Below are positions 3,999 to 26,697 of a DNA stretch of 37,823 nt, piece by piece (within the stretch, counting starts at the first letter, position 1; the number at the start of each line of letters is the position of its first letter). A program made the translations under genes and the position numbers. This DNA comes from Gloeocapsa sp. DLM2.Bin57 (GTDB lineage Bacteria; Cyanobacteriota; Cyanobacteriia; Cyanobacteriales; Gloeocapsaceae). The stretch is from NCBI GenBank assembly GCA_007693955.1, contig RECR01000096.1, positions 1 through 37,823 of the forward strand. The letters run 5' to 3'. The notes beneath the pieces were generated by a model that saw nothing but the letters and a program-made list of their open reading frames with translations, ran no database searches and was not told the origin of the DNA.

Positions 3999-6900
3999 AT
4001 GTCACTTATTACAGAGGTTGAGGTTTTAAATAACCCTGAATCTACTCCAGACTCAATTCGGTTTATGACTTTCAACAGTGCTCTAAGCGATCGCCGTACA
4101 GAAGAAGGTCAACTAATAGAAATTCTCCAAGAAACAGATTATGAACTAGCTCAAAATAATGCAGCAATTATTCAGTATCTTCGTCCTGAGATTCTACTCT
4201 TACAAGAATTTGACTATGATCCTAATGGTGAAGGAATTAGTCTATTTCAGCAAAATTATCTAGAAATTCCTCAACAGGTAGATGGCTTTAACCTAGATCC
4301 GATTGAGTATAACTATGTATATATTCCGCCTACTAACACTGGAGAGTTAGCCTCAGTAGATTTAAATAATGACGGTCAAATTGCTTTACCTAATGATGCC
4401 TATGGTTTTGGCAACTTCCCCGGTCAATATGGTATGGTTGTACTCTCTCAATACCCAATTGAGCAGGATAATGTGCGAACTTTTCAAGAGTTTCTCTGGA
4501 AAGATATGCCAGGAGGTTATCTAGAAACAAATATAGGTGCAGAAGGAACAACGCCCTTAACTGAATATTTCTCTGCCGAAGCGATCGATGTACTCAGGTT
4601 ATCATCTAAAAACCACATTGATGTACCAATTAATGTTAATGGCGAAACAATTCATGTTTTAGCTAGTCACCCCACCCCTCCAGTTTTCGATGGTGCAGAA
4701 AAACGTAATTTAAAACGCAATAACGACGAGATTCGTCTTTGGGCAGATTATATATCAGGAGGCGATCGCGCTGAATATATCTACGATGATCAAGGTAATG
4801 TCGGTGGTTTAGCAGCAGGGGCTAGATTTATCATTATGGGTGATCAAAATGCTGATCCTGTAGATGGTGATTCTGATAAAGGCGATCCTAGCTTAGGGCG
4901 TGGGGCGATCAATCAAATTTTAACCCATCCTAATGTTAATACCAGCGTTACTCCCTTTGCTGCAGGGGGTGTAGAAGCAGCCTATCTACAAAAAGATAGC
5001 AACCCAGAAGTTTACAATCAGCAAGGTAATCCAGGTCATGATACTTCAGGCTTTGACTTAAGAGTAGATTATGTTTTACCCTCGGATAATTTAGATATTA
5101 AGAGTTCAGGAATTTTTTATCCCGATACACAAGATCCCCTTAACCGAGATATATTTTTACCTGAAGGAACGTTTGAAACTGATCAAGCTAGAGATGGATA
5201 TGATAACAGAGTCTCTGATCACCATGCTGTTTTTGTAGATATCAGCCTAGGCAATAATAGCGACGACGTATTCAGAGTAAATCTCTTTCATCAGTCTGAT
5301 CAAGAAGGATTTGCCGCAGCTCCTCAAGATGCTAATCGTAATGCAGCGGTAATGAACCGTTTACGCAGTCTTAACGATGATCCTACTCTCTTTATTAACT
5401 CAGGTGATTTATGGATCGCAGGATTATATCTAGATGCTAGTGAGGCAATCTTTGGATTAAAAGGCTCAGGACAAGTAATGATCAATAATTACTTAAACTG
5501 GCAAACTGTTACTTGGGGTAATCATGAATTTGATATACCTACCGACGAAGTAGCTCAAGCTATCACTGCTAATCCTGATTTGTCTATCGGTTTAAATAAT
5601 GTTTTTGTTCCTGTAGAAGAAGATTATATAACCTCTGCTAATGGACGTACTGATAATTCCTTTACCGTTGCTGTAGAAGAAACTGAGAATGGAGAAGAAA
5701 CCGTTCGGACTTTACGAATTCATGGTAATGTCGCTGATTTAAGTAGCCCTCTTTACGAAGTAGCTGATTTAGGTTCAATTCATCTTCATAATGCTGCTGA
5801 TGGTGGCGCAGTGGTTGCACCTTTAGAAGTTAATGCTACTGAAGATCGATTATCAGCTTATTTCACAGGGGTAATTACTTTAACCGAAGAGTTGGAAGAA
5901 GCCTTAAATAACGGCGAACTCTATGTCAATGTTCATAGCGAAAACTATCAATCAGGAGAAGTTAAATCAGTATTAAATCTCGATCGCACCTATCCTGGTA
6001 CTTTCTTCCCCTATATGAGCAGTAATATGGACTTTGCTGCTGATCCTTATTTAGGTCCACTACAAGTAGAGGGAATGCGCTCCGCTCAAGGTTTGGGTAA
6101 TCAAACAACCATGGATCCACTTTATATCGATGTTGGTGGAGAAACTTTTGCTGTGGTAGCCGCTACTACCCCCACTATGCCTTCTTTGGCTTCTAATTCA
6201 GTGGCTAATGGTGGTATAGTCACTCCTGAAAATTGGGTAGCTGATGAACAAGGTTATGATGATCTAGCCGCCCTCATTCAAGAACAAATTGATCGGGCGA
6301 TCGCAGGTCCAGATAACATTTTGGGTACTGAAGATGATGTCAATAAAGTAATCGTTGCTACTCATATGCAAAGGATTAATATTGATATCGATGAGTTAGT
6401 TCCCCGTCTTAAAGATGTAGATGTTTACATTGCGGGTGGCTCTAACACTATCTTCCAAAATCGAGCTAATCCTCTCTATCCTGGTGACGAGTATCAGATT
6501 GAATCCTATCCCCTGCTTCTAGAAAATGCTGATGGATTACCCACCGCTGTAGTTAACACCGATATGAATCATGAATACCTCGGTTATCTACAGTTAGAAT
6601 TTAATTCAGATGGTGTAATCGTCAACGATTTTAATGGTGATGGTCAATATAACTTCGGTACAGACCTAGATTTTGATATCAGTGTTAGTCGTGCTTATCC
6701 TGGTGATATCAGTCAAGTTGAGGCTCTCAATGCTACCAATTTATACGATTCTCGTATCGATAATTTAGCCACTGCTTTGAGCAATCAAATGAACGATAAA
6801 GACTCTCGTTGGTATGGTATCACCGATGAATTCTTAAATGGACAAAGACTAGGTGGTGATTTTGACGGTGTCCGTAACCAAGAAACTAACTTAGCTAACC

Positions 6901-8219
6901 TGATTCACGATAGCTACATTTGGTATAGTCGATTCTGGGATGAAGATGTAGTTATTTCCATGAGTAATGGTAGTGGCATCCGCGCTTCAATTGGACAGAT
7001 TTTACCCGATAATAGTCGCACCCCCAATGATGCTAACGAAGCTGTAGGTAAACCTGCAGGAGGTATTAGTCAAGCAGACATAGAAAGTGCTTTAGCATTT
7101 AATAATAGTATCGCTTTAATTGATATTACAGGGGAAGAACTTAAAATAGCCCTAGAGTCAATTAACGGTTTAGGTAACGGTGATGGCGATAATGGTGCTT
7201 ACCAAGTTGGCGGTTTCGCTTATTCCTTTGATCCAGATCAACCCGAAGGAATGAGAGTACGTAATGCTCGTTTCCTCAACGAAGATGGTAGTTTAGGTGA
7301 CTTTATCATTCAAGATGGTGAAGTTATGACTGGAGCTCAGGTCTTTCGTATGGCTACTCTAGGTTTTAATGCTAGTCGGATCTTTAGCTTTATTGAGAAT
7401 CAAAATCGTGTCAATCTCGATCCTAATGATCCTCAAAATTCTACTGGAGGGGTTATCGCTGAAACACCTGCTGATCTTCCTAATAACGCTCCTGTATTTG
7501 GTAACGGTTCACAACAAGATTCTCTAGCAGAATATCTCTATCAATTCTCGCGCATGGGAACTGATGATCCCTCCGATGATGTACCTTTGGGTACTCCTGA
7601 TACTCTCAGAGAAGAAGATACTCGTATTCAAATTCTCTCTTATCGTGAAGACTCTCTAGCGTCAGATTCTCCTGTAGAACCTCCTATTTCTGAATTACCC
7701 CAAAACGTTTTTGGTACAGATGGAGACGATCGCTTTGATAGCGTTTTACCAGGAGAGAAAATGTTTGTAGGTGCAGGTCAAAATCTCTTTACTGGTGCTG
7801 GTAATGATGTAGTTGACATTACTTTAGCCAATGGTGGTAACCGCATTGATTTAGGATCAGGAGACGACCTGATCTTTGCAGGTAACGGAGATCGCCTTAT
7901 CGCTGGCTCTGGTAATGATATTCTGTTCCTCGGTAATGGTCAAGGTAACAATGTGGTTACTGGTGGACCAGGTGCGGATCAATTCTGGTTAGTCACTGAT
8001 TCTGAAGATATACCCCCAATGGCTCAAACTATCACTGATTTTACTCCAGGAGAAGATGTCATCGGCTTGGCTACTACTGATTTTAGTTTTGAAGATTTAA
8101 ATATTACTCAAAGCGGTAGCAATACTGTAGTTAGTCTGACACCTGCTAATCAAGATTTAGCCATTCTGCTGAATACTCAAGTTTCTGAGTTGACAGAATC
8201 TAGTTTTGTTTTTGCTTAA
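3999..8219 (+). CDS. Giant multi-domain secreted phosphatase/nuclease (EEP, 5'-nucleotidase, CHRD, RTX)
   Basis: The protein is 1406 aa from the ATG at 3999; a TTG three codons upstream is the alternative. Residues about 20-420 form an endonuclease/exonuclease/phosphatase domain with LLLQEFD, MGDQNADP and SDHHAVFVDI active-site motifs. Residues about 428-860 are a calcineurin-like 5'-nucleotidase metallophosphatase (FINSGDLW, TWGNHEFD, VIVATHMQR, NTDMNHEYLGYL), interrupted near 549-659 by a CHRD domain (YVNVHSENYQSGEVKS). Residues about 950-1160 resemble the 5'-nucleotidase C-terminal domain (NLANLIHDSYIW, SNGSGIRASI). The C-terminus (about 1236-1331) carries glycine/aspartate RTX-like calcium repeats (GSGDDLIFAGNG, GSGNDILFLGNG). 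There is no N-terminal signal peptide, so type I secretion is likely. The composition recalls the atypical large alkaline phosphatase of Synechococcus PCC 7942. Likely role: scavenging phosphate from nucleotides and phosphoesters outside the cell. Confidence 0.85.
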   Translation: MSLITEVEVLNNPESTPDSIRFMTFNSALSDRRTEEGQLIEILQETDYELAQNNAAIIQYLRPEILLLQEFDYDPNGEGISLFQQNYLEIPQQVDGFNLDPIEYNYVYIPPTNTGELASVDLNNDGQIALPNDAYGFGNFPGQYGMVVLSQYPIEQDNVRTFQEFLWKDMPGGYLETNIGAEGTTPLTEYFSAEAIDVLRLSSKNHIDVPINVNGETIHVLASHPTPPVFDGAEKRNLKRNNDEIRLWADYISGGDRAEYIYDDQGNVGGLAAGARFIIMGDQNADPVDGDSDKGDPSLGRGAINQILTHPNVNTSVTPFAAGGVEAAYLQKDSNPEVYNQQGNPGHDTSGFDLRVDYVLPSDNLDIKSSGIFYPDTQDPLNRDIFLPEGTFETDQARDGYDNRVSDHHAVFVDISLGNNSDDVFRVNLFHQSDQEGFAAAPQDANRNAAVMNRLRSLNDDPTLFINSGDLWIAGLYLDASEAIFGLKGSGQVMINNYLNWQTVTWGNHEFDIPTDEVAQAITANPDLSIGLNNVFVPVEEDYITSANGRTDNSFTVAVEETENGEETVRTLRIHGNVADLSSPLYEVADLGSIHLHNAADGGAVVAPLEVNATEDRLSAYFTGVITLTEELEEALNNGELYVNVHSENYQSGEVKSVLNLDRTYPGTFFPYMSSNMDFAADPYLGPLQVEGMRSAQGLGNQTTMDPLYIDVGGETFAVVAATTPTMPSLASNSVANGGIVTPENWVADEQGYDDLAALIQEQIDRAIAGPDNILGTEDDVNKVIVATHMQRINIDIDELVPRLKDVDVYIAGGSNTIFQNRANPLYPGDEYQIESYPLLLENADGLPTAVVNTDMNHEYLGYLQLEFNSDGVIVNDFNGDGQYNFGTDLDFDISVSRAYPGDISQVEALNATNLYDSRIDNLATALSNQMNDKDSRWYGITDEFLNGQRLGGDFDGVRNQETNLANLIHDSYIWYSRFWDEDVVISMSNGSGIRASIGQILPDNSRTPNDANEAVGKPAGGISQADIESALAFNNSIALIDITGEELKIALESINGLGNGDGDNGAYQVGGFAYSFDPDQPEGMRVRNARFLNEDGSLGDFIIQDGEVMTGAQVFRMATLGFNASRIFSFIENQNRVNLDPNDPQNSTGGVIAETPADLPNNAPVFGNGSQQDSLAEYLYQFSRMGTDDPSDDVPLGTPDTLREEDTRIQILSYREDSLASDSPVEPPISELPQNVFGTDGDDRFDSVLPGEKMFVGAGQNLFTGAGNDVVDITLANGGNRIDLGSGDDLIFAGNGDRLIAGSGNDILFLGNGQGNNVVTGGPGADQFWLVTDSEDIPPMAQTITDFTPGEDVIGLATTDFSFEDLNITQSGSNTVVSLTPANQDLAILLNTQVSELTESSFVFA

Positions 8220-14908: not shown

Positions 14909-15814
14909 TCATCCAACAAGTAATTGTAATAAAGATTTAGTAATAGGAAAATTAGTCTGACGTTCAAAATATAAGAACATCGGACTAAAATTAGCCTCTA
15001 AAAACACATATTCACCATCAGGAGTTAATCGCCAATCAATAGCAGTCCATTCTAACCACAAAGCGGGAGTAATCTTTAAACAATCATTGATGAGAGAATC
15101 TGGTAATTGTACGGGTAATAACTGTGTTTGCTTATCCCGGCGAAAATCTACAGAGTTACTACGAATTTCAGCGCTATAAACCGATTTACCAATAACATAA
15201 CTTCTGATATTTGTACCTGGTATATACTCTTGCAGAGTAATCGGAGAAACCTTTAAAACTCTGTTGAGACGTTGAGTATCTAAATAATCTTGAGATAAAA
15301 TACCCGTATGAGCACCCCCATAAACTGGTTTAAAGATAACCTGGGGATAACGTTGAGCAAATTCTAACACTGCTTGAGGTTCATTGGTGATTAAAGTATC
15401 AGGGATTCTAACTCCTAGTTGTTGTACTTTTTTTAGTTGTAAAGGTTTTTCCCGATGAAATTGATAAGCTTGCCAAGAATTAACCCAACGGATGGAACTT
15501 TCTTGTAAAAAAGTCCTTAGAGTACTCATACTATCATTATGGGCTATTTGATATTGTTGGCGATCTTCTAATTTAGGAATCTTGACAGGATACATAGTAC
15601 GCCAAAAAACACTACTAATCTCCTCAAAGGCAAGAATGTCACCATTAGGGAGTTTTAACCTTCCTTGATGATTTTGAGAATAGCAAGATAAACTAATTTG
15701 CCCAGGAAACAAGGATGTATCAAGATAATGTGCATCACATCCTTGTTTTTTTAACTCTGTTAGTATGTGTACTGCGTGAGGTTCAGTGTTATTCCCTAAT
15801 ACTAAAATAGACAT
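14909..15814 (-). CDS. ATP-grasp ligase, likely graspetide (omega-ester/amide) synthetase
   Basis: The protein is 301 aa. The N-terminal pre-ATP-grasp domain resembles MvdD/RimK-type peptide ligases (ILVLGNNTEPHAVHIL, LDTSLFPGQI, ISSVFWRTMYP near 66-76). The ATP-grasp region has the ATP-binding Lys162 in VIFKPVYGGAHTG, the hinge QEYIPG (195-200), Asp260 in WTAIDW, and the metal ligands Glu273 and Asn275 in FLEAN. After EAN the usual microviridin-ligase NPNGQW is replaced by FSPMFLYFERQT, so it is a distinct branch. The gene begins 5 nt after a protein with eight TTxxxxEE-like repeats, so the likely reaction is ATP-dependent ester or amide bond formation between Thr/Ser and Glu side chains of that tail. 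RimK-like glutamate ligation is the alternative. Confidence 0.8.
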   Translation of the reverse strand: MSILVLGNNTEPHAVHILTELKKQGCDAHYLDTSLFPGQISLSCYSQNHQGRLKLPNGDILAFEEISSVFWRTMYPVKIPKLEDRQQYQIAHNDSMSTLRTFLQESSIRWVNSWQAYQFHREKPLQLKKVQQLGVRIPDTLITNEPQAVLEFAQRYPQVIFKPVYGGAHTGILSQDYLDTQRLNRVLKVSPITLQEYIPGTNIRSYVIGKSVYSAEIRSNSVDFRRDKQTQLLPVQLPDSLINDCLKITPALWLEWTAIDWRLTPDGEYVFLEANFSPMFLYFERQTNFPITKSLLQLLVG

Positions 15815-15819
15815 TATAC

Positions 15820-17580
15820 TTAGAGAAATGATAAATCAGTATCACCGTTAGTTAGAAAATCACCAACTTCGTTAAAGAATCCCCCTTCTTCTCCCATAGC
15901 GCGAGTACTTATTTCAGTCTCGCCAACAGGTGGTAGAATACTAACTAATCCTCCCCCTTCTTCTCCTACAGCACGGTTAGTGGCTAGTTCTTCTGGTACG
16001 ATATCAAGATCACTATCATCAAATCCACCCTCTTCTCCTATCGCTAGAGTAGTCACTTCCCCTTGATCAAGTAAAATATCACCATCGTCGAAACCACCTT
16101 CTTCTCCTATCGCTTCAGTACTAAATTGGATATCATCAATAATACCATCATCAAAACCACCCTCTTCTCCCAACGCTAGAGTAGTTATTTCTACGTCGTC
16201 TGTTGGCGGTAAAATGGCAGTTTCATCATCAATAATACCATCATCAAAACCACCCTCTTCTCCCAACGCTAGAGTAGTTATTTCTACGTCGTCTGTTGGC
16301 GGTAAAATGGCAGTTTCATCATCAATAATACCATCATCAAAACCACCCTCTTCTCCCAACGCTAGAGTAGTTATTTCTACGTCGTCTGTTGGCGGTAAAA
16401 TGGCAGTTTCATCATCAATAATACCATCATCAAAACCACCCTCTTCTCCCAACGCTAGAGTAGTTATTTCTACGTCCGAATTATCGGGATTTTCTACTTC
16501 TCTCATTGCTATACCAATATCATCCATGATTCTTGCTCCTTTACTTTGATAAAGTTTAACTCCAGTAATATTACTATTTTCTGCTAATTCTTCCCAATTA
16601 TCCACTAAAGAAATATTAATATTTTTTGCTGTTTCCCCTGGTTGGAAAATGAGTAAATTATCTTCAGGAATGAAAGGATATTCTGCTCTATCTACATCAG
16701 CAAATGTAAAATATCTAACGTGAATCGGTATTTGACTCTGTCTATTTAGAGATACAGTAAACTCTATGGTATTATCTTGAACCAATCCATCACTAATACT
16801 GATATTTCTTCCAGATAATGTTGTGTTAACAATTGGTTGAAATATGCCATTTTGTCTGATTGGTTGATTGAGAATACCACCTACAGCTAGATAACTAACT
16901 TCTTGAGGAGAAAATTGCGCATTTTCTGGCTCTGATAGTTGAATCCCAAAAGTTTTAATCTCATTTTCTGTTTGATTGGCTAAGATTTCTACAGTAATGT
17001 TTTGAGTTAATTCTCCTGGTGCAAAAGTTAATGATCCCTCTTGATGAGTAAAGTCTTCATCTGCCGTTGCTGAGAGAGAAAATGTGTTATAGTTAACTGT
17101 AATCGGTTCTTGACTTGCTTCTGTTAAAGATACCGTAAATTCTAATTGGTTATTAGTAGCTGTTGGTAAAATTATTTGATTATTAGCGATAGAAATAATG
17201 GGTTGAGCTTCTCTTAAGTTTTGTTGTAGATCATCCTTAATAGTGACGATCGCTACATCATCAGCTATTGTGGCGTGGTTTGGGTTAAAAATCTTAACTC
17301 CAAATGTTTTATCACCTTCGGGAATATCATCGTTATTAATATCGATTATTATCTGTTTTTCTGTTTCACCACGTTCAAAAATTAATCTACCTTGTTGGGG
17401 GATAAAATCTCGCCAACCTACAGCTTGATTGTCGTAATCAAAGGTAAAATATCTCAGGCTAACTCTTCTGTTCGGGTGAGGATTGTCTAAAACTACATTG
17501 ACTGCTACTCTACCTTCTTCCTCAAAAGCTTCTGAGTTTTCTAGAGAAATATGCGGCAATTCAAAAGGATGGGCTACCAT
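15820..17580 (-). CDS. Calx-beta protein with eight C-terminal TTxxxxEE repeats: candidate large graspetide precursor
   Basis: The protein is 586 aa from the ATG at 17580; a TTG at 17622 would give 600 aa. About residues 6-362 form three Calx-beta-like sandwiches (for example LIFERGETEKQIIIDINNDD, LTFAPGELTQNITVEI, LIFQPGETAKNINISL). The last 220 residues hold eight units with consensus TTxAxGEEGG. Hydroxyl pairs and Glu pairs are 373/374 with 379/380, 404/405 with 410/411, 435/436 with 441/442, 466/467 with 472/473, 487/488 (Ser-Thr) with 493/494, 510/511 with 516/517, 534/535 (Thr-Asn) with 540/541 and 558/559 (Ser-Thr) with 564/565. TTxxxxEE is the core signature of plesiocin, a graspetide with Thr-Glu ester rings. 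The ATP-grasp ligase follows 5 nt downstream. There is no signal peptide and no PFFARFL-type leader motif. That the tail is crosslinked is inference; a non-modified surface protein is the alternative. Confidence 0.75.
   Translation of the reverse strand: MVAHPFELPHISLENSEAFEEEGRVAVNVVLDNPHPNRRVSLRYFTFDYDNQAVGWRDFIPQQGRLIFERGETEKQIIIDINNDDIPEGDKTFGVKIFNPNHATIADDVAIVTIKDDLQQNLREAQPIISIANNQIILPTATNNQLEFTVSLTEASQEPITVNYNTFSLSATADEDFTHQEGSLTFAPGELTQNITVEILANQTENEIKTFGIQLSEPENAQFSPQEVSYLAVGGILNQPIRQNGIFQPIVNTTLSGRNISISDGLVQDNTIEFTVSLNRQSQIPIHVRYFTFADVDRAEYPFIPEDNLLIFQPGETAKNINISLVDNWEELAENSNITGVKLYQSKGARIMDDIGIAMREVENPDNSDVEITTLALGEEGGFDDGIIDDETAILPPTDDVEITTLALGEEGGFDDGIIDDETAILPPTDDVEITTLALGEEGGFDDGIIDDETAILPPTDDVEITTLALGEEGGFDDGIIDDIQFSTEAIGEEGGFDDGDILLDQGEVTTLAIGEEGGFDDSDLDIVPEELATNRAVGEEGGGLVSILPPVGETEISTRAMGEEGGFFNEVGDFLTNGDTDLSFL
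16132..16476. repeat. Perfect 93-bp tandem repeats in the core region of the precursor gene
   Basis: A 93-bp unit repeats with exact period (landmark AATAATACC at 16138, 16231, 16324 and 16417) for about 3.7 copies. It encodes 31-residue units, each with one TTLALGEEGG core and an acidic-proline spacer (ETAILPPTDDV). Identity at the nucleotide level, including synonymous sites, points to recent duplication or gene conversion. The four further core units toward the C-terminus (15877-16131) are diverged. Confidence 0.95.
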
Positions 17581-17749
17581 GACTAAAAACCTACCATTCT
17601 CGCTTATATCTAGTATAGTCAAAAGATTTTGTTACAGTGTTAACATATTTAAACTTGTAAATCTGATATGATAGAATGTTTGTAGAAAATTAACAGTGTT
17701 TAGAGAACTCTTCTCTCTCTAGATATAGCAGCAAAGGAGTTAAGCACAA

Positions 17750-22475: not shown

Positions 22476-23267
22476 ATGAATTTACACTCCTCATCTGTTT
22501 ATGGTCCGGTTACCTCGTGGCGTTATGGAAGCTCTTTAGGAATAGATCCCATTGGGAGTATTTCTACTTGTTCTTTTGATTGTGTTTATTGTCAACTTGG
22601 GGAAATTAAGCGTAAAACCAGAGACAGAGCGGTTTATGTGACTACAGAGCAGATTCTCACAGATTTACAACAGGTAGATTGGCAAAATAGTGATATTATT
22701 ACTCTTAGTGGTAATGGTGAGCCAACTTTAGCGCTGAATTTGGGAGAAATTATCACGACAATCTCTCAACTTACGAAAAAACCGACTCTGGTTTTAACCA
22801 ATGGAACTCTACTTAATTTACCCGAAGTAAGAGAAGCTTTAAATTTAGCCAGCAAAGTTTCTATAAAATTAGACGGGACAGATTTTGACCAGGTTAGACG
22901 CATTAATCGTAGTGTAGAAGATTTTAACTGGTCTGAACTTATCGAGGGTATGCAAACTTTTGCCGAACAATATCACGGAGAACTGAGTATTCAAACTATG
23001 ATATTATCTCCTTGGAATGCTCAAACACTCAATCGATATACCGAGATTGTCTCAACCCTAACACCCCAGGAAATTCAACTTAATTTACCCCTTCGTCCTA
23101 AACCCTTAGTCCATCAGCTTGACGGAAGAGGTAACCACTCAACTGATGGAAATCGCCCTTATCAAGTAAGAAAATTAAACTGTGTTAATGCTGAGGTAGT
23201 AGAAGGAATCGCCTTTACCATTAACCATATCACTAATATACCAGTGCGTTTACCGAAGCTACTGTAA
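22476..23267 (+). CDS. Radical SAM protein
   Basis: The protein is 263 aa. Cys32, Cys36 and Cys39 form the CX3CX2C motif (TCSFDCVYCQLG) for the [4Fe-4S] cluster that cleaves S-adenosylmethionine. The GGE-like element is ITLSGNGEPTLAL, followed by LVLTNGTLL and VSIKLDGTDFDQVRRINR. The fold and motifs match the compact radical SAM group related to the TYW1-like COG0731. No substrate can be assigned. It ends 9 bp inside the convergent TPR gene. Confidence 0.85.
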   Translation: MNLHSSSVYGPVTSWRYGSSLGIDPIGSISTCSFDCVYCQLGEIKRKTRDRAVYVTTEQILTDLQQVDWQNSDIITLSGNGEPTLALNLGEIITTISQLTKKPTLVLTNGTLLNLPEVREALNLASKVSIKLDGTDFDQVRRINRSVEDFNWSELIEGMQTFAEQYHGELSIQTMILSPWNAQTLNRYTEIVSTLTPQEIQLNLPLRPKPLVHQLDGRGNHSTDGNRPYQVRKLNCVNAEVVEGIAFTINHITNIPVRLPKLL

Positions 23268-25884: not shown

Positions 25885-26697
25885 ATGAGTCCGAAAAAAC
25901 TCTCTGATTCTGAGCAACAAGAAATTATTCAACTTTATCGTACTTCAGCAGCCACTACAGCTACTCTAGCTCAACGCTATGGAGTAAGTAGTTCAACTAT
26001 CAATAGGTTTTTAAAAAGTAATTTTTCTCCTACAGAATATGAAGAATTGGTTCACAAAAAACGTTTAATTGGTCGCAAGATCTATAATGAAGCTCAATTA
26101 GAGTTAAACCCCATCCCAGAATCTCCCTCTACAACTAAATCAGAGGAGTTAAAACCCATCACAGAATCTCCCTCTACAGCCAAATCAGAGGAGTTAGAAC
26201 TAATAGTTACAGAATCCTCCTCTCAACAGTCAAACGAAGAATTAGTGGATGTTGTCAGTCTCAACGAATTATTAGGAGAGGATTTAGAAGAGATCTCAGA
26301 TGAAGAGGAAGAGGATGATTACCCCGAAGAGGATGACTCGGAAGAATCAAAAGATGACTCAGCAACCGTGATTATCACTAACTTACCTCAGATTGAGATT
26401 TTACCCTTATCTGAAGCTTATTTCCCCAAAATTTGTTATGTAGTTATCGATCGCTTCGCTGAATTAATTACCAAACCCTTGAGAGAATTTGGAGATTTAG
26501 GTAAGATACCAACTACAGAGATAGAACAGAAAACCTTGCCTATTTTTGATAATCAAAAAGTAGCTCGACGCTTTTCTAATCGTTCTCAGCGAGTGATTAA
26601 GATACCCGATGGTCGTTTGTTGAAAAAAACAGCAACCTATCTTAAAGCTAAAGGTATCACTCGCTTACTGATTGATGGACAAGTTTACGCTTGTTGA
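25885..26697 (+). CDS. Helix-turn-helix protein with acidic linker
   Basis: The protein is 270 aa from the ATG at 25885. Residues about 1-45 form a transposase-type HTH (SDSEQQEIIQLYRTSAATTATLAQRYGVSSSTINRFLK). A linker contains a 15-residue direct repeat (PIPESPSTTKSEELK then PITESPSTAKSEELE) and a very acidic run (EEISDEEEEDDYPEEDDSEESKDDS near 135-160). The C-terminal region (about 165-270) ends with RVIKIPDGRLLKKTATYLKAKGITRLLIDGQVY. This looks like a conserved cyanobacterial DNA-binding protein rather than an active transposase, because no DDE domain is present. It overlaps the convergent amidohydrolase by 13 bp. Confidence 0.75.
   Translation: MSPKKLSDSEQQEIIQLYRTSAATTATLAQRYGVSSSTINRFLKSNFSPTEYEELVHKKRLIGRKIYNEAQLELNPIPESPSTTKSEELKPITESPSTAKSEELELIVTESSSQQSNEELVDVVSLNELLGEDLEEISDEEEEDDYPEEDDSEESKDDSATVIITNLPQIEILPLSEAYFPKICYVVIDRFAELITKPLREFGDLGKIPTTEIEQKTLPIFDNQKVARRFSNRSQRVIKIPDGRLLKKTATYLKAKGITRLLIDGQVYAC

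Follow-up and report, generated by a model that had tools for sequence, protein, structure and literature searches.

A candidate precursor and ligase gene pair

The window, by which we mean the whole 37,823-nucleotide stretch of contig RECR01000096.1 from Gloeocapsa sp. DLM2.Bin57, carries on its minus strand a gene for a protein with Calx-beta domains and a repetitive tail, followed after a gap of 5 nt by a gene for an ATP-grasp ligase (Table 1). A preliminary description made from the DNA letters had given this two-gene arrangement, the same gap and a precursor of about 586 residues, and the open reading frames agree on all three: the precursor gene extends from an ATG at 17580 to its stop at 15820, ahead of the ligase gene, and the ligase gene from an ATG at 15814 to 14909. 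The program-made frame of the precursor opens earlier, at a TTG at 17622; we placed the start at the ATG because the same-genus orthologue described below has the conserved start MV[AE]HPFEL.

Table 1. Features of the locus in window coordinates
Feature	Position	Strand	Basis
Putative Calx-beta graspetide precursor gene, 586 aa	15820..17580	-	Open reading frame, Pfam, syntenic orthologue in G002
Putative ATP-grasp graspetide ligase gene, 301 aa	14909..15814	-	Profile, sequence and fold comparison
N-terminal leader motif MVAHPFEL	17557..17580	-	Common to core-bearing frames
Calx-beta domain 1	17230..17550	-	PF03160, 60.4 bits
Calx-beta domain 2	16918..17157	-	PF03160, 52.5 bits
Third Calx-beta-like region, weak	16486..16863	-	PF03160, 19.6 bits, E 0.00094
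Tail with eight core units	15880..16464	-	Unit inspection; five exact pattern matches
93-bp tandem repeat, 3.7 copies, 100% identical, over units 1-4	16132..16476	-	Repeat search

Opposite the tail repeat lies a plus-strand frame of 111 codons (window 16214-16549), which appears to be an effect of the repeat and not a likely gene. Elsewhere in the window we noted a 45-bp tandem repeat of 2.2 copies (26101-26200), a gene for a Mo-dependent nitrogenase C-terminus domain protein (PF06967, 21831-22175) and an accompanying radical SAM gene (22476-23267), the last two not linked to the graspetide finding.

The whole precursor matched the Pfam Calx-beta family PF03160 with an E-value of 2.7e-34 over three stretches. 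Scored singly against the Pfam cut-off of 27 bits, the first two domains passed and the third region failed, and the three Calx-beta-like domains originally described are therefore two clear ones and a third below the cut-off. Modelling the structure of the Calx-beta protein on two sequences gave a pLDDT of 43, too poor for use. The remaining three Calx-beta genes in this genome had neither leader nor cores, which rules out core tails as a general trait of this genome's Calx-beta proteins. One of the Calx-beta proteins encoded in this genome is a subtilase (L234, contig G000:C41).

A second genome of the genus (G002) contains a syntenic orthologue, 83% identical in DNA over 4.36 kb including the divergent PutA gene, with the start MVEHPFELFTEQISNIKLNN, Calx-beta domains and a first core TTLALGEEGGFE before it is cut by the contig end within the second core unit; the leader of the window precursor is 13 residues shorter. 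The two proteins are 69% identical (dN 0.19, dS 0.78), and per-domain dN values of 0.13-0.26 against dS values of 0.65-0.96 show constraint on the Calx-beta part. The search for core-bearing Calx-beta proteins beside a ligase gene that had been proposed at the outset thus yielded this orthologue but not its ligase, which was not found in a genome 77% complete on a contig ending in the tail. The third genome of the genus (G001) gave no ligase, no motif and only a distant Calx-beta match, and has another gene beside the PutA start.

Core units and leader of the precursor

Inspection of the tail revealed eight core units starting at precursor residues 373, 404, 435, 466, 487, 510, 534 and 558. 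Units 1-4 read TTLALGEE, unit 5 STEAIGEE, unit 6 TTLAIGEE, unit 7 TNRAVGEE and unit 8 STRAMGEE, each followed by GG, for a consensus of [TS][TN]xAxGEEGG with five TTxAxGEEGG, two STxAxGEEGG and one TNxAxGEEGG. The eight TTxxxxEE-like units reported earlier are all present, although three are not exact. All eight place hydroxyl donors before conserved acidic residues, as in graspetides, and the five exact and three near units form the repeated TTxxxxEE core of graspetide group 2. That this is the plesiocin core, as had been stated, is confirmed by the printed letters of the PsnA2 peptide in PDB entry 7drm, which end GKVTGGKGGPYTTLAIGEE, that is TTLAIGEE, as in window unit 6; a short precursor relative also matched the PsnA2 14-38 peptide of that entry, at an E-value (0.29) that is no proof of descent.

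Among 149 family units, compiled without the L106 protein and with positions 1, 2, 6, 7 and 8 fixed by the search pattern, the near-constant positions were A4 (138), G9 (147) and G10 (146). Position 3 varied widely (L 74, Q 21, E 20, R 10, M 9, K 8, Y 3, A 2, N 1, D 1), and from the first to the last unit of the window it is L, L, L, L, E, L, R, R. A variable position 3 in a nearly constant frame is as expected of a specificity residue.

The precursor begins with a conserved motif, HPFEL, contrary to the initial view that a classical short graspetide leader is absent; it thus belongs to a known type of precursor, the Calx-beta domains being inserted between leader and cores, with the first core following the leader by more than 360 residues. 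The motif fits only partly the pattern Phhx(1,2)h given in the accessible part of PMC8939145. An initial M, up to seven residues and HPF were found in 72 of 79 core-bearing frames versus 11 of 4816 other frames, counts that do not represent a random sample because the loci were fetched for the motif or the ligase, and six of these 11 other frames are family precursors with altered cores. A precursor without a leader is ruled out by MVAHPFEL together with this family-wide count. In 11 of 81 core frames HPF was absent from the first 12 residues: three were open at the 5′ end, one had masked letters, one belonged to another ligase branch, one had SPF, one had HPF further in, and four had no in-frame leader. 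In five loci (L041, L044, L046, L164 and L039) the same leader precedes cores of altered form (TTNYVTA...EEGG), and the ligase family may therefore tolerate other spacings.

Relationships of the ligase

Pfam assigned the ligase an MvdD pre-ATP-grasp domain and the RimK-like ATP-grasp domain PF08443, in keeping with the MvdD/RimK-like layout first proposed, while all NCBIfam cut-offs were missed: 160 bits for TIGR04187 (E 7.7e-47; curated cut-off 350), 133.2 bits for MvdD TIGR04184 (E 1.1e-38; cut-off 475) and 110.2 bits for MvdC TIGR04185 (cut-off 425). The protein is a relative, not a member, of these three models. Its nearest solved relative by sequence is PsnB, the plesiocin macrocyclase (E 2.2e-28, approximately 26-27% identity), followed by MdnC and MdnB. 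A fold search with a model (pLDDT 91.2) derived from an alignment of 20 relatives ranked MdnC 5ig9 first (E 1.1e-26), with PsnB 7drp at 2.4e-26 and RimK near 1e-15. Residues K162, R204, D260, E273 and N275, which we take to have catalytic roles, are invariant in 20 of 20 aligned ligases and align with identical residues in PsnB; Lys162 had already been singled out. An ATP-grasp ligase of the MvdD/PsnB kind is thus encoded with the precursor. Searches of plasmids found no relative at 60% identity or above.

The RimK-like domain and the richness of the tail in Asp and Glu would also suit a ligase that does not crosslink the tail, adding residues in the manner of RimK or acting elsewhere, with the acidic tail a plain linker. 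We consider this very improbable, since the fold match to MdnC and PsnB (E about 1e-26) is far better than that to RimK, the core is identical with that of plesiocin, and motif and ligase co-occur across genomes as described next.

Distribution of motif and ligase across cyanobacteria

A DNA pattern for TTxAxGEEGG was searched in 388 genomes of the order, with the reversed pattern as control. It occurred in 43 genomes from 25 genera, and the control in none (0/388). In a class-wide sample the pattern was found in 26 of 388 genomes and the control in 5; four of those 26 were already known, and of the rest all but G563 and G597 were fetched, 20 in number. At a threshold of E <= 1e-40, the ligase was detected in 54 of the 388 genomes of the order, which divide into 40 with motif and ligase, three with the motif only (G002, G359 and G370), 14 with the ligase only and 331 with neither. 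The co-occurrence in 40 of 43 motif genomes gives a Fisher p of 6.5e-39, a value that is too small because the genomes are related. Both lay on one contig in at least 29 of the 40, in these 75-2359 nt apart. Chance or plain low complexity as the source of the tail is ruled out by the reversed-pattern control and this co-occurrence, and the graspetide reading is supported by the plesiocin core, PsnB as nearest solved relative and the co-occurrence alike.

Precursors consistently lacking a nearby ATP-grasp gene, named in the preliminary description as evidence against the reading, were not seen. There are exceptions: G370 encodes precursors but its genome gave no close ligase, and at a second locus in G090 the 14 kb examined around short precursors contained no ligase. 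Further cases are G359, with the motif lacking a near ligase on a contig that starts inside the gene, and motif frames whose fetched surroundings include no ligase, some of them lying at a contig end (among them L117, L124, L134, L135, L137 and L142). A ligase is therefore not always near the motif. Among the 14 ligase-only genomes, seven had a partial ligase or an internal stop, and some had altered cores.

Close ligases are present in many cyanobacteria (48-61% identity at full length, fragments up to 65%), and in named genome contigs 29 of 29 ligase relatives had cyanobacterial names. They mostly adjoin short precursors of 64-134 residues with the leader HPF[DE]L, one to seven TTLALGEEGG cores and commonly a Gly-Gly site. 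This short cyanobacterial precursor family may already have been catalogued.

Large precursors and the Gly-Gly site

In ten other large precursors (405-488 aa) the leader and 7-12 cores are accompanied by a C-terminal region, about 200 residues long, common to them all; in two more, of 320 and 374 aa, some 95 residues that look helical by eye separate leader and cores. Pfam gave nothing above cut-off for the other large precursors, and one weak RTX match (E 0.025). The ligases of eight of the ten and that of G374, whose precursor is cut at a contig edge and looks alike by eye in its visible part, form one clade (100/99), here called RTX-like. Because the large parts differ and lie on different sides of the cores, their sequences suggest that fusion to graspetide cores probably arose more than once. 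The ligase tree does not settle the number of fusions; in it the window ligase forms a long branch, placed with little certainty next to that of G144 (83/60). At ligase residue 276, the window and the RTX-like clade read LEAN-F-S and most short-precursor ligases LEAN-P-S, the exceptions being L094, which has F and a short precursor, and L043, which has P and a large one; the F common to the window and RTX-like-clade ligases may reflect shared descent.

Using a regular expression over residues 16-60 before the first core, we looked for Gly-Gly sites close to the leader. Of the large precursors, the window and G002 proteins included, 0 of 14 had one, versus 50 of 56 short ones, in loci that were fetched for motif or ligase and are no random sample. 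The window precursor, with 586 residues and no such site, thus departs from the short precursor with Gly-Gly cleavage, a form that is usual and not strictly defining, large graspetide precursors being known (PMC13097080, accessible part). The lack of the site in all 14 means that the cores may stay attached.

These findings bear on a more conventional explanation, an ordinary graspetide with an oversized leader, in which the ligase modifies the tail, a protease frees the units and the Calx-beta part is a mere carrier. Most relatives are indeed short precursors, most with a Gly-Gly site, and the genome of the window has three C39 peptidase matches. We nevertheless regard this explanation as unlikely, given the missing Gly-Gly site in the large precursors, the constraint on the Calx-beta part and two unrelated large architectures that also keep a folded-looking part.

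Separately, locus L133 (G304:C101) encodes a 285-residue protein without an HPF leader (6689-7543), in which a domain of about 110 residues precedes 14 plesiocin-like units (TTLAVGEEEP-like), and an overlapping 306-codon frame (5796-6713) sharing 32% identity with the ligase across its C-terminal half, with no Pfam match. To judge from these frames, the pair is perhaps a second, unrelated protein-tail system.

Comparison with known graspetides

Among the closest known systems is plesiocin (PsnA2/PsnB), prototype of group 2, which shares with the window the TTLAIGEE core in tandem, a single ligase and PsnB as nearest solved relative; unlike the window precursor, PsnA2 is a short peptide of four units without a folded domain, its printed leader part has no HPF, and the ligases are only about 26-27% identical. 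Plesiocin has two esters per repeat (PMC12291112, available part) and is a potent serine-protease inhibitor, stronger with more cyclized motifs, in the available text of PMC13097080. Microviridins (MdnA with MdnB/MdnC) resemble the window in ligase fold and cyanobacterial origin and include multi-core precursors such as AMdnA (PMC5934393, in part), but combine a TxKxPSD core and interlocked rings with the leader PFFARFL, in contrast to TTxAxGEE and HPFEL. As far as the accessible texts go, PFFARFL is the microviridin leader element (PMC8939145), RPFG the recognition part of the ThfA leader (PMC13003496), and PsnB and AMdnC work distributively, a precedent for many-core processing (PMC5934393).

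Among larger precursors, corallotide (group 15, CorA/CorB) is described in the same available part of PMC13097080 as having a precursor of about 22 kDa with five repeated crosslinked motifs; it resembles the window protein in its size and repeats, but with an N-terminal alpha-helical domain (residues 1-86) in place of Calx-beta domains, Lys-Asp amides in KxxxD plus hydroxylation, and occurrence in Corallococcus only. By their description there, the precursors of groups 34, 35 and 41 are long or large, and those of 34 and 35 contain repeated motifs. Fuscimiditide ThfB acts on engineered protein substrates, and at a distance, RPFG being sufficient (PMC12291112 and PMC13003496, parts available), and these are laboratory constructs, unlike the natural protein substrate proposed here. 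Large graspetide precursors and laboratory protein cyclization by ThfB are thus already known. The open-licence literature held nothing relevant on Calx-beta with graspetides or ATP-grasp enzymes or on these core letters, the available portion of the main text of Makarova 2022 makes no mention of Calx, and neither Calx-beta nor RTX-like natural fusions to plesiocin cores were found; within that literature, the Calx-beta fusion with plesiocin cores appears new.

Proposed working and significance

Judged from sequence comparison, the locus is likely a plesiocin-type graspetide system with a protein precursor, with rings carried on a Calx-beta scaffold that may act as a protease inhibitor. By analogy with RPFG of ThfA and PFFARFL of microviridins, the HPFEL leader would dock on the ligase, which would activate both Glu residues in every TTxAxGEE unit and join them as esters to the two preceding hydroxyls. 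Each unit would become a small bicyclic hairpin, with at most 15 esters (-270 Da), since unit 7 (TNRAVGEE) is one hydroxyl short. With the Calx-beta array separating leader from cores, and no Gly-Gly site after the leader, the rings would probably remain on the protein. The product would be a Calx-beta scaffold with rigid loops, most plausibly a multi-headed serine-protease inhibitor, the weakest step of this scheme. Points that tell against the scheme are the shorter leader compared with G002, the long distance from leader to first core, the loci lacking a near ligase and, for lasting attachment, the C39 peptidase matches in the genome.

In another genome (G144, contig C83), whose ligase is the closest to that of the window (61% identity), a subtilase gene with S8, SdrD_B and RTX stretches (L061:6423-11864) ends 78 nt before a 134-residue precursor lacking a Gly-Gly site and its ligase gene, all on the same strand. 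This is a possible protease-inhibitor operon and, like the Calx-beta subtilase of the window's genome, a hint only for the inhibitor role; beyond the window's own genome, L061 and L136 were the only scanned neighbor loci with subtilase signatures.

The crosslinked tail could instead have a structural role, giving a surface protein a rigid spacer or anchor that resists proteases. Calx-beta and RTX-like partners hint at an extracellular, adhesin-like setting. Corallotide, also large and repeated, showed no bioactivity in the tests reported in the accessible part of PMC13097080. A structural role is conceivable, though we would not favor it, as a known protease inhibitor has the same core, in which position 3 varies (L, Q, E, R, M, K, Y) while the surrounding frame stays constant.

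Returning to the scaffold-borne inhibitor, we suggest tentatively, and with some doubt, that the Calx-beta, RTX-like and third large kinds carry permanent rows of ester hairpins as multi-target inhibitors displayed outside the cell, every hairpin being a loop that binds a protease through a specificity residue of its own, and that graspetide chemistry in cyanobacteria modifies whole multidomain proteins and not only peptides. If so, an enzyme class of small peptides would extend to natural protein substrates of several architectures, and the cyanobacterial ligases might find use in placing rigid loops on scaffolds.
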